64,000 nucleotides of DNA from Acidobacteriota bacterium. GTDB lineage: Bacteria; Acidobacteriota; Terriglobia; Acidiferrales; UBA7541. The position numbers and the translations under genes are program-made. The notes beneath the pieces were generated by a model. That model did no database searches. It was given only the letters and a program-made list of their open reading frames with translations, and had not been told where the DNA came from. The stretch is taken from the NCBI GenBank assembly GCA_013286165.1, contig JABDGF010000006.1, positions 1 to 64,000 on the forward strand, written 5' to 3'. This document shows, piece by piece, positions 2,068 to 21,884 of this stretch (position 1 is its first letter; each line of letters opens with the position of its first letter).

Positions 2068-3186
2068 CTAGTACAACTCCCGCTTCGCTTCGTCCGCCTC
2101 TACGGCCATCTGCTGCAGCAGCTTCAGGAATTTCGGCTGCTGCCCGGTGAATAGTCCGCTGGCAATGAATCCGGCGATCGCCGCTCGAGCTCCCGCCAGC
2201 TCGTCTGTGACCGGACGAATCACCGCGCAGTGCGGCAGATTCGGGCTGATGAACTCGCACGGCACCGGGAAAATCAGGCTCGGCTGAAACTCCGGACCCT
2301 TGGTGAAGAAATCCGGGAACGTGAGTCCGCCCGACGACACCGGCGCCACCGGCCCTTGCACACCATTGCCGGCGAAATCCACCCACTCGAGAAAGTGAGC
2401 GACTTCGTCGCCGCCAATGGCCTGCGTGATGCGAAGCGTTTCGAGGCTGCTCGCTTTGTGGCCCATCGCCTGGTACAAACTCGATCCGCCCTGCTCGATG
2501 GCTCCGAAATGGAATGCAGCGGTGTTGGCGATGATCTGAATGTGATTCGGATCGTTGAAGTCGGCATTGGTGATGGGAATCGCGGTGCGATTCGTGATGG
2601 TGATCGCTTGTGGGAACGTCGCACCGAAATCCGGATTCGTGGCGCTGCGGTAGCGCAGAAACCAGCTGGTATCGACGTTCAGATGCATGAGGTTCGTGAG
2701 GCGGCCGATATTTTGCGCGCCCGATGCGGTGCTTCCCTGCAGCGTGCGGAATTGGTCGAAGTCCACCGGCTCGGCGCCCTTCCACTCCAAATATTTATTT
2801 AGAAAGTTGGCGTGGCTGATTTCATCGAGCGTATTGCTCGTTATGTATTGCGGTCCGTCGCCATCGAGCTGCGAAAGCGCGTTCTGGTAGGCGTTGAGCG
2901 TTTGGCCCGGATCGGTTTCGATGGGCATGCCGCTGGTGAGGCCGCCAAGTTCTGCGTACTGCTGCCACAGGTCGCTTTCGATGAGTTCCGCTGCGGCCAC
3001 AAATCGCAGAATCGCCGTGTCGCCCCGGTTCAGGCCTTCGTTCGATTCGGAATCGGACCGCATCGTGCTGCCAAATACCGCTTTCGCGCCGCCCGCGAAT
3101 ACGGTTCCCAGCGTGGCCGCGCCTGCCGCGAGCGCTCCATTGCGCAAGACGGCACGGCGATTCATCACCGTTTTTTTCGTATTCAT
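2068..3186 (-). CDS. Tat-exported ferritin-like domain protein, 372 aa
   Basis: The N-terminus has a twin-arginine signal (MNTKKTVMNRRAVLRNGALAAGAATLG...), so export in folded form is expected. The mature part carries the helical pattern of ferritin-like (DUF4439/Ferritin_2-type) proteins: AELIESDLWQQYAEL, a TLDEISHANFLNKYLEW helix, and IGGDEVAHFLEWVDF with Glu/His pairs that could hold a di-metal site. The start at 3186 is chosen for the GAGGAG five to six nt upstream and because the Tat motif follows it directly. Such proteins are often linked to stress or metal storage; the function here is inferred from family only. No operon partner. Confidence 0.75.
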   Translation of the reverse strand: MNTKKTVMNRRAVLRNGALAAGAATLGTVFAGGAKAVFGSTMRSDSESNEGLNRGDTAILRFVAAAELIESDLWQQYAELGGLTSGMPIETDPGQTLNAYQNALSQLDGDGPQYITSNTLDEISHANFLNKYLEWKGAEPVDFDQFRTLQGSTASGAQNIGRLTNLMHLNVDTSWFLRYRSATNPDFGATFPQAITITNRTAIPITNADFNDPNHIQIIANTAAFHFGAIEQGGSSLYQAMGHKASSLETLRITQAIGGDEVAHFLEWVDFAGNGVQGPVAPVSSGGLTFPDFFTKGPEFQPSLIFPVPCEFISPNLPHCAVIRPVTDELAGARAAIAGFIASGLFTGQQPKFLKLLQQMAVEADEAKRELY

Positions 3187-3999
3187 AAAGCTCCTCGTTG
3201 TGTGTCGGATGTGGGGTGGTGCTGCTCGAACACTGAGGTCGAGGGACGAACTACTTGTCACGCGTGCGTCTCGAAGATGTTTCTTCGTCGCATATTTTTG
3301 TGTGCGCGGCGTCGGTGACGAAATGATGACGCGAGTGTGAACGCGTCGCGCGTCGGACAGCGGACCTGGCGGTCCTCTTACGATCGGTCCGCGCGGCGCG
3401 GAAGAGAATCGGGCATGAGTACCCGGGCTACGCCTACCGCACGGTTGGCTGTCGGGCGCGAACTCCAGCCTCTGCCACTCAAGTGAACTCGCGCGTGCCG
3501 GATTTTGAAGTTGCCGGTAAGAACCGCGCACGCGCTGGACCACGCACTGACGAGCCATCTCCTACCGCTCGCCAACGCAAGCGTCTATCGGAGTGCGGCG
3601 GGTCCGGACGCCGCTTTTCCGCACACCACTTCTCTACATACTTACACACGGCCGAAGGCCCGGCACACACTCCACGCAGTCGCCGCGGCCGCACTCACAC
3701 CAGCGAGAACACCCAAGGAACTCGTTACGCCATGGCGCGCTCGGCGCGTGATCGATGTGCGCGCGTGTTGGATTGAGTGAAAGCGGCGTTAGGACCCGCC
3801 GCACTCCATAGCAGTTCCGGTACGCAACGATTTGAGGTGGCGGGTCGAGTGCGGCACCGGTGCGTCGTGCCCATACCGGCGAGGCGGCTGAGTAGCTCGC
3901 ATGTGCCCTGTTGTTGTGGTATATAGTGGCGCAACGATTGAGCCACCTTCGCCGTCCTTCCAACGGCGCGCAAGCCCCCGAAGCCCCAAAGGAGTTTCT
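3187..3999. other. Long intergenic region
   Basis: About 800 bp. It holds family D repeat remnants (3350-3475) and otherwise short overlapping frames on both strands with no consistent codon use or ribosome binding site. 3480-3900 is unexplained GC-rich sequence. AAAGGAG at 3988-3994 serves the gene at 4000. Confidence 0.5.
3350..3475. repeat. Family D repeat remnants
   Basis: GCGTCGGACAGC...CCTGGCGGTCCTCTTACGAT near 3350-3395 matches the left arm of the element at 1641. Near 3440-3475, GGTTGGCTGTCGGGCGCG and a degraded family A half (AACTCCAGCCTCTGCCAC) resemble the right arm. Confidence 0.55.
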
Positions 4000-5668: not shown

Positions 5669-5683
5669 GTTGAATGGTTCAAC
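5669..5683. promoter_or_regulatory. Palindrome GTTGAATGGTTCAAC, candidate enhancer-protein site
   Basis: Perfect 6-bp arms (GTTGAA/TTCAAC) around a 3-nt centre. The same palindrome with one central change lies at 21535, upstream of the paralogous peptide gene at 21669. It sits about 127 nt upstream of the sigma-54-like promoter, a usual place for activator binding. Confidence 0.5.
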
Positions 5684-5809: not shown

Positions 5810-5825
5810 TGGGCCTCGCGTTGCA
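5810..5825 (+). promoter_or_regulatory. Sigma-54-type promoter candidate
   Basis: TGGGCCTCGCGTTGCA has the invariant GG (-24) and GC (-12) at the required 10-nt spacing and a full TTGCA -12 box; the -24 box matches only TGG. The -12 GC lies about 40 nt before the ATG at 5864, as at the paralogous locus at 21610. Confidence 0.5.
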
Positions 5826-5863: not shown

Positions 5864-6019
5864 ATGGCGACGAAAACGAACAAAGCGTCCAGCGGCAAGA
5901 AGTTGAAGAAAGTCTCCCTGAAACCGGTGAAGAACCTGACCACCACGCAGTCGTTGCTGAAGATCGACGGGATTAAAGGCGAATCGACGGACTCGAGTCA
6001 CAAGGATTGGATTGAGTAA
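5864..6019 (+). CDS. Lys-rich micro-peptide 1 (51 aa) ending in an Hcp-like motif
   Basis: The start at 5864 has GGAGG at 5854-5858. The N-terminal half is basic (MATKTNKASSGKKLKKVSLK then PVKNLTT). The C-terminus, SLLKIDGIKGESTDSSHK then DWIE, closely resembles the first beta-strand of type VI secretion Hcp tube proteins, but the frame stops right there and no continuation is seen downstream. It shares the Lys-rich/KP(V/L)xT layout with the peptides at 6107 and 21669. The next gene starts 87 nt downstream, and a terminator closes the pair. It could be an Hcp remnant fused to a leader or a genuine small peptide with a variable tail. Confidence 0.65.
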   Translation: MATKTNKASSGKKLKKVSLKPVKNLTTTQSLLKIDGIKGESTDSSHKDWIE

Positions 6020-6106
6020 CGAATGGCGGCGAATGGCAGCACGGTGATGTAGTAGCAGTTGGTATGGCAGATGATCGCAGCAGCTCAAGCTCACAAGGAG
6101 ACTACG

Positions 6107-6253
6107 ATGCCAAAAGCAAAGAAGGCCACCAAGCACTCACGTAAGCTCGCCGCCGGAAAGAAATCCGAATCGGTGAAGCCGCTCAAAACGAATATGAGCG
6201 ACCTGCATGTCACCAAGCCGGTGGATGCGCCATCGGCGAATCTTTTTAAATAG
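6107..6253 (+). CDS. Lys-rich micro-peptide 2, 48 aa
   Basis: The start at 6107 follows AAGGAG at 6094-6099. The sequence is a basic leader, KAKKATKHSRKLAAGKKSES, then VKPLKT and a short neutral tail (NMSDLHVTKPVDAPSANLFK). The leader aligns with the peptide at 21669: K-A-x-K-H-S/T-R/K, then G-K-x-x-E-x-V-K-P-L-x-T. No signal peptide or membrane helix. It is probably co-transcribed with the 5864 gene. A conserved leader with a divergent tail is typical of modified-peptide precursors, but no modifying enzyme is nearby. Confidence 0.65.
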   Translation: MPKAKKATKHSRKLAAGKKSESVKPLKTNMSDLHVTKPVDAPSANLFK

Positions 6254-6303: not shown

Positions 6304-6342
6304 GCGAGCGGCTCGGATCGAAATCCGAGCTGCTCGCTTTTT
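6304..6342 (+). terminator. Intrinsic terminator of the micro-peptide operon
   Basis: Stem GAGCGGCTCGGAT / ATCCGAGCTGCTC (one wobble) with a CGAA loop, followed by GC and a run of eight T. It lies 50 nt after the stop of micro-peptide 2. Confidence 0.85.
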
Positions 6343-6627
6343 TTTGTGCTATTGCCCCATTGCCGCGCCGTTCACGTAACCACCTAAAAGCACGCCGCGC
6401 GTTCCACTTGACGCGCAGCCGCCGCCCAGCTTATCTTTTCCTCAACGTGGCATAGTTCGCGCCGGGCCTCTCGAAGCATCACAGCCGGACGCGCGCTATG
6501 GAAGGCACGAGCGGCGCACTCCCCGCCGTCTCGAACAACGACCGTAGCACCACCAGCAACGAGCAATTCGCGGCGTCCCTACCCCAGGCGCCCAACGGAT
6601 CCGTGTGCCTAACACAAAGGCCCAATC

Positions 6628-21534: not shown

Positions 21535-21568
21535 GTTGAATGATTCAACGGGTGTTGAGCTACTCAAC
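21535..21568. promoter_or_regulatory. Tandem palindromes GTTGAATGATTCAAC and GTTGAGCTACTCAAC
   Basis: 21535-21549 and 21554-21568 are two perfect dyads, 4 nt apart. The first is the same palindrome as 5669-5683. They lie 43-76 nt upstream of a sigma-54 promoter, as expected for activator sites. A regulator is not encoded in the window. Confidence 0.6.
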
Positions 21569-21609: not shown

Positions 21610-21625
21610 TGGCACGTGGGTTGCA
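21610..21625 (+). promoter_or_regulatory. Near-perfect sigma-54 promoter
   Basis: TGGCACGTGGGTTGCA matches the published consensus TGGCACG-N4-TTGCA at every defined position with correct spacing. The -12 GC lies about 45 nt before the ATG of the Lys-rich peptide at 21669. Confidence 0.8.
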
Positions 21626-21668: not shown

Positions 21669-21884
21669 ATGGCTAACAAATCGAAGGCAGTGAAGCACAC
21701 GAAGGGAAGCAAGCATCTTCACAAAGGCAAACAGGAAGAGGCGGTAAAGCCCCTGACGACTCTGCAACTCAGCGCACCGGTCCACATCAACACCCAAATC
21801 ACCACGGGGGCAGGCACGACGACTGGCTCGTCTGGCACGGTCACCACGGGATGGGACCTGGTACAGAACAAAACCAGCGCGTAA
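21669..21884 (+). CDS. Lys-rich micro-peptide 3 with Thr/Gly tail, 71 aa
   Basis: The start at 21669 has AAAAGGAGG about 6 nt upstream. The basic leader (KAVKHTKGSKHLHKGKQEEA then VKPLTT) aligns with the peptide at 6107. The tail is quite different: a short strand-like stretch (LQLSAPVHINTQI) and a Thr/Gly/Ser run (TTGAGTTTGSSGTVTTGW) before DLVQNKTSA. No signal peptide or membrane helix. It is driven by the sigma-54 site at 21610. A leader with a Thr/Ser-rich end is compatible with a modified or exported peptide, but no processing enzyme is adjacent; function unknown. Confidence 0.7.
   Translation: MANKSKAVKHTKGSKHLHKGKQEEAVKPLTTLQLSAPVHINTQITTGAGTTTGSSGTVTTGWDLVQNKTSA

Follow-up and report, generated by a model that had tools for sequence, protein, structure and literature searches.

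Three short genes in the 64-kb window (the whole stretch of DNA analyzed here) belong to a previously unnamed leader peptide family of soil acidobacteria; its members come from a single genus and a small number of relatives of that genus. Sequence comparisons indicated that the family is real and that its function can largely be inferred. Specifically, the family members are probably sigma-54-controlled, RiPP-like precursors that would be processed and exported by a machine containing an RRE-M50-HlyD fusion protein. The RiPP-like label, which is our best reading, rests on the leader and core layout of the peptides and on the RRE-M50-HlyD neighborhood. Because the family resembles known RiPP systems, we consider it likely to be a new variant of RiPP logic; the Hcp-derived cores and the scattered layout of the genes are the surprising parts. 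The analysis links orphan, easily overlooked genes of 21 to 78 codons to a machine (RRE-M50-HlyD) and to a regulon (sigma-54), and the question of which peptides the exporter handles becomes a testable one.

Members and spread of the leader peptide family

A preliminary description of the window had placed three short genes with a common basic leader ending in KP(L/V) at positions 5864, 6107, and 21669. All three open reading frames (ORFs) were present, and each was preceded by a clear and strong Shine-Dalgarno site. The genes and the signals around them are listed below. Hcp (also TssD; PF05638), to which the tails are compared, forms the tube of the type VI secretion system (T6SS).

5669..5683, no strand assigned: palindrome GTTGAATGGTTCAAC, a candidate site of a sigma-54 activator
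5810..5824, plus strand: sigma-54-like -24/-12 promoter TGGGCCTCGCGTTGC, with 8/11 consensus letters and correct GG/GC spacing
5864..6019, plus strand: leader peptide gene 1, 51 aa; its tail SLLKIDGIKGESTDSSHKDWIE corresponds to the Hcp N-terminal strand and loop
6107..6253, plus strand: leader peptide gene 2, 48 aa; its tail SDLHVTKPVDAPSANLFK corresponds to Hcp strand 3 and the DKASPxL motif
6304..6345, plus strand: intrinsic terminator of the 5864-6253 unit, with a 15-bp hairpin, a CGAA loop, and 8 T (-30.5 kcal/mol)
21535..21549, no strand assigned: palindrome GTTGAATGATTCAAC
21554..21568, no strand assigned: palindrome GTTGAGCTACTCAAC
21610..21624, plus strand: perfect (11/11) sigma-54 promoter TGGCACGTGGGTTGC, before gene 3
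21669..21884, plus strand: leader peptide gene 3, 71 aa; its tail end GTVTTGWDLVQNKTSA corresponds to the Hcp C terminus

Pfam and NCBIfam searches with the three ORFs returned Hcp and chance-level matches and nothing else, and an AlphaFold model of the 51-aa peptide, with a pLDDT of 65 and a pTM of 0.15, was uninformative. For the gene at 2068-3558 on the minus strand, which adjoins the first cluster, the protein showed a weak match to ferritin-like proteins and what looks like a signal region, with no visible tie to the peptides.

The leader consensus was KKLxKGKKLExxKPL, followed by a variable tail, and gene 3 matched the leader profile with an E value of 6.9e-8. A profile search of related genomes, which had been proposed as a check, turned up further homologues in the genus and beyond it. 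There were 48 matches in 11 of the 20 genomes of the genus, with a maximum of nine in one genome, and matches were also found in other genera of the taxonomic family (nine in G024, as well as matches in G661, G571, G659, and G622). Phylum-wide leader searches gave weak matches only beyond those genera. The named contigs from a DNA pattern search were all acidobacterial MAGs, mostly "palsa" isolates. On viral contigs, the matches to the leader pattern sat inside unrelated longer ORFs. A plasmid tblastn search with two family peptides gave no match, a weak test owing to low-complexity masking, and ten family loci had no match in Rfam. Searches of the open-access literature for Hcp fragments, the NPQPLPP motif, and RRE/M50/HlyD combinations returned no description of the family. 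The earlier guess of an undescribed, scattered peptide family is now well supported.

In total, 65 peptides were read, up to nine per genome. Most members were 21 to 30 aa in length, which corresponds to the leader plus 3 to 10 residues, and the genes often stood in tandem. A Shine-Dalgarno match of at least 5 nt preceded 40/50 members versus 8% of background small ORFs, and a terminator was found for 26/50 members versus 9.5% of the background. In two subfamilies, the tails had pN/pS values of 0.98 to 1.14; the leader had a value of 0.14, with synonymous sites near saturation, and this value is biased downward because members were picked by leader similarity. When syntenic copies were compared, the leader and the terminator hairpin were nearly identical, and the tail and the 3' untranslated region (UTR) differed. 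Thus, the members showed a conserved N-terminal leader and a variable C-terminal core, a layout that, at the level of sequence, matches the leader and core of peptide precursors.

Three further observations concerned individual members. In the 3' UTR of the gene at L246:16567-16650 and in the syntenic loci L156, L245, and L247, a conserved stretch, GTTAGCAGTTGCA, was followed by a nearly identical terminator hairpin; the intervening tail codons varied while the stretch and the hairpin were kept, which could point to a functional RNA element. The tails of four members (L249:8489-8596, L248:9975-10079, L251:6660-6788, and L277:2502-2609) contained a second xPL(M/I/T)(K/R) motif, which looks like a repeat of the leader's end. 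In a different taxonomic family, a leader peptide at L274:2752-2871 (G677, contig C56) had LNPQPLPP at its end, and a broader group of small proteins may share this motif.

Sigma-54 signature and the home locus

The sequence GTTGA-N5-TCAAC occurred only three times in the 64-kb window (5669, 21535, and 21554), in all cases upstream of leader genes, and the site at 21610-21624 was the only 11/11 sigma-54 site in the window. Similar signals were found across the family. A sigma-54 -24/-12 site (at least 9/11, with GG/GC) was located upstream of 26/65 members versus 1.7% of random stretches, and nearly all of these sites were at -59 to -78 from the start codon. In addition, 17/65 members had GTTGA-N3..6-TCAAC upstream, most often around -175 to -218; among random 300-nt stretches, the frequency was 0.8%. 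A recognizable site was present in part of the members and not in all of them. Gene 2 lacked a separate sigma-54 site and is probably transcribed together with gene 1.

Some short members were found next to a conserved cassette, and we refer to this arrangement as the home locus. The cassette consists of genes for a GAF-HlyD protein, an HlyD adaptor, and an RRE/M50/HlyD fusion of 714 to 715 aa, all on one strand, and the genes for one to three short leader peptides run convergent to it. At every home locus, a sigma-54 activator gene was located on the peptides' strand just upstream of the peptides. By sequence, GG-N10-GC promoters together with a gene for an enhancer-binding activator have the makeup of a sigma-54 regulon, and the common upstream signature and the activator gene at each home locus tie the scattered genes to the machine.

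The cassette was 96 to 774 bp from the nearest family member in eight genomes of the genus (G000, G002, G004, G007, G011, G013, G016, and G019) and in G024, which belongs to another genus and has the same arrangement, with 48% identity in the fusion protein. The genome of the window has its home locus on contig C82. The preliminary description had noted that no modifying enzyme was adjacent. Within the window this was correct; on contig C82, however, a sibling gene lies 600 bp from the cassette. An RRE protein adjoins short members in nine genomes from two genera, the window's genome included, but none of the three window genes. All members beside a cassette were short forms, and none with an Hcp tail was found there. 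Scattered members had no recurring neighbors; the genes around them were ordinary.

The G622 cassette locus (L277, contig C45) was not counted as an independent genus because its DNA is 94.6 to 96.9% identical to that of G002 (L249, contig C233), although the two genomes were assigned to different genera. Either a binning error or a recent transfer may account for this likeness. Two tandem peptides of G002 appeared as one in G622.

In the mechanism that we propose, the activator would switch on all members together and the RRE domain would bind the leader, with LExxKPL as the obvious candidate for the recognized motif. The M50 site of the fusion would then cut the leader off, and the HlyD parts and a TolC-like outer-membrane channel would export the core. 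In this genome, the machine would be encoded at a single locus on contig C82, and the peptides of the window would serve it in trans as orphan substrates. The leader constraint, the tail variability, the RRE-M50-HlyD cassette beside family members, and the shared sigma-54 signature lend good support to the precursor reading that had been put forward for the three genes. This reading must be amended in two respects: the tails of the long members are pieces of Hcp, and candidate processing and export genes do exist elsewhere in the genome.

The family members directly adjoin the activator gene and have sigma-54-type promoters, which would also be expected if they were small cationic regulatory proteins that work inside the cell, for example on the activator, while the exporter handles something else. 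We consider this rather improbable. The RRE in the adjoining protease-exporter implies a small peptide substrate, and the family members are the small peptides found there; moreover, a conserved leader with a free tail follows the logic of a precursor.

The RRE-M50-HlyD fusion and known systems

Residues 34 to 412 of the fusion protein matched the daptide intramembrane metalloprotease model NF041824 with an E value of 9e-54; the scores of 181 to 189 bits were below the curated cut-off of 300, which places the protein outside the daptide peptidases as this model defines them. The C-terminal part matched HlyD/RND adaptor models. HEFGH and NPLxKxDG were invariant in 10/10 homologues and correspond to the HExxH motif and the distal NPxxxxDG motif of M50 (site-2) proteases. 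A search of viral contigs gave no relative of the M50-HlyD fusion.

The N-terminal domain was predicted to form three strands followed by three helices (b-b-b-a-a-a). The model was built from a single sequence (mean pLDDT of 59, with a core of about 70 to 80), and its best fold matches, which were modest (Z of 8 to 9; Foldseek E value of 0.015), were 6jx3 (Z of 8.9), 5v1u (Z of 8.6), and 5v1v (Z of 8.5). These structures are RREs of lasso-peptide B1 proteins that were solved with a bound leader peptide. The next matches were CteB and PqqD, and PqqD models also matched the fusion by sequence, if weakly (E value of 5e-4). By its strands, its helices, and its fold matches to known RREs, the predicted domain qualifies as an RRE.

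Daptide leaders are removed by an RRE-dependent intramembrane peptidase (PMC10036551). The daptide systems (MpaP/DapP; PMC10036551) are like the present one in that they have several short precursors per locus, a conserved N-terminal leader, and an RRE fused to an M50-type intramembrane protease, with homology across the RRE and M50 parts. An LE motif is found in both leaders (ELExMEAP in daptides and KKLExxKPL here), which is a resemblance only. In contrast to daptide systems, an HlyD adaptor is fused to the protease, the match to NF041824 stays below the cut-off, and the precursors are scattered in the genome. The peptides also lack the invariant C-terminal Thr by which daptides are recognized, and no aminotransferase, dehydrogenase, methyltransferase, or ABC transporter was found among the scanned neighbors. 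Since no tailoring enzyme recurred among the scanned neighbors of family members, the peptides may be unmodified, in which case they would not be RiPPs in the strict sense.

For an epipeptide, both cleavage and export have been ascribed to one M50 protease, EpeP, as a proposed dual role (PMC10885120). The fusion protein is similar to the epipeptide system (YydH/LiaK/EpeP) in that it was matched by NF058609 with E values of 1e-9 to 2e-14. However, no radical SAM epimerase was found, and the setting here is a Gram-negative envelope with HlyD adaptors. Neither the RRE-Finder paper (PMC7470986) nor a structure-based RRE paper (PMC12710340) mentions HlyD or M50.

Distant homologues of the M50-HlyD fusion (24 to 27% identity) were found on an Ensifer megaplasmid and on Escherichia coli plasmids. 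In Ensifer adhaerens (L281, NZ_CP118611.1), the fusion gene lies by a giant RTX-like adhesin gene, with genes for a GAF-HlyD partner, as in our cassette, and a SecA-like protein. In E. coli (L282, NZ_CP081687.1), it adjoins a giant Ig-like adhesin gene, together with TolC, and the substrate has a basic N terminus, like our peptides. The substrates at these loci are giant adhesins, however, and not micropeptides. Judged from the location of the homologues beside giant adhesin genes, this architecture probably serves for the export of proteins with basic signals at the N terminus, and the two loci are candidates for an ABC-less secretion system for giant adhesins. If the proposed reading of the leader peptides is true, RiPP-like logic extends to scattered substrates in acidobacteria and reaches a type of exporter that was otherwise seen here by giant adhesin genes.

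Hcp pieces in the tails

The three window tails had been described as completely different, but each of them matched another segment of one protein, Hcp. We generated an Hcp HMM of 161 positions from 42 full-length acidobacterial Hcp proteins, scored the tails without the leader, and compared each window tail with 2000 shuffles of itself. The tails of genes 1, 2, and 3 matched positions 4-26, 50-71, and 143-160, respectively, and in each case 0/2000 shuffles scored as high. Gene 1 matched PF05638 with an E value of 5.6e-6, the only one of the three genes to pass the gathering score, and the E value for gene 2 was 0.037. The gene 1 tail also matched Hcp chains in the PDB.

Hcp pieces were also found in members on contigs C7 and C48 of the window's genome and in members of G011, G002, G009, and G659, the last from another genus. 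These members draw on three Hcp regions (positions 4-26, 39-73, and 111-160). An independent member of another genus, found by its leader alone, had an Hcp tail (0/4000 shuffles). In G024, member ends (GVQGESL, IDKASVPL, and GGGGAGAGKIKF) resembled Hcp signature motifs; the first of two tails scored was clear (0/4000 shuffles) and the second was weaker (31/4000). Furthermore, we ran an unbiased Hcp scan of 19,797 non-redundant six-frame stretches out of 681 kb, 65 of which were leader peptides; the best nine stretches, and 10 of the top 11, were leader peptides. The matched tail segments (about 13 to 36 aa) were far shorter than a full Hcp domain (about 130 to 160 aa, PF05638). Each long tail matched a single Hcp segment, and unlike Hcp itself, the peptides never held more than one or two Hcp structural elements, fused to the leader. 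The window clusters showed no synteny with other Hcp-tailed clusters.

Low-complexity leaders match easily and two of the three window genes were below the Pfam cut-off, as if the genes were spurious lysine-rich ORFs with an accidental resemblance to Hcp. We give this explanation almost no weight. It is refuted by the Shine-Dalgarno, terminator, promoter, and codon statistics and by Hcp scores that exceed all or nearly all shuffles, including those of the tail from the other genus that was found by leader alone.

A second explanation treats the tails as relics of an hcp gene that bore the leader and fell apart: the leader was kept for an intracellular role such as RNA or nucleoid binding, and the Hcp tails drift. 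Such a history would fit the unconstrained evolution of short-form tails, the loss of the Hcp match in the closest paralogue of gene 1 (contig C24), and the absence of a detectable T6SS sheath gene from the genus (no gene for the sheath protein VipB in 20/20 genomes, with the E. coli control detected). However, we consider it unlikely. No full-length Hcp with the leader was seen among the Hcp genes read in the class, and no Hcp remnant was found downstream of truncated tails. In addition, the N-type tails of the window's genome and G011 keep GIxGESTDxxHK despite many silent codon differences, among them a TCG/AGC serine switch. Finally, the RRE-M50-HlyD neighborhood would be left unexplained.

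Under the precursor reading, an hcp gene was the probable source of the Hcp-derived cores. They may since have drifted, as the C24 paralogue suggests, or they may be selected to resemble Hcp, as suggested by the GIxGESTDxxHK motif kept over silent changes and by the lack of Hcp debris downstream. If the cores are what they seem, a genus with no detectable T6SS sheath would draw core peptides from fragments of the T6SS tube protein, a source that would be new and that might add a point of contact with interbacterial warfare. One speculative extension, to which we assign a low probability, is that T6SS-free acidobacteria secrete the cores as mimics of Hcp strands, which would bind or poison the tubes of attacking neighbors. 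This anti-T6SS activity would be delivered via an RRE-guided, ABC-less exporter of a new class. Separately, and in a genus where no T6SS sheath gene was found, loci L053, L054, and L056 encode divergent full-length Hcp-like proteins with N-terminal signal-like segments.
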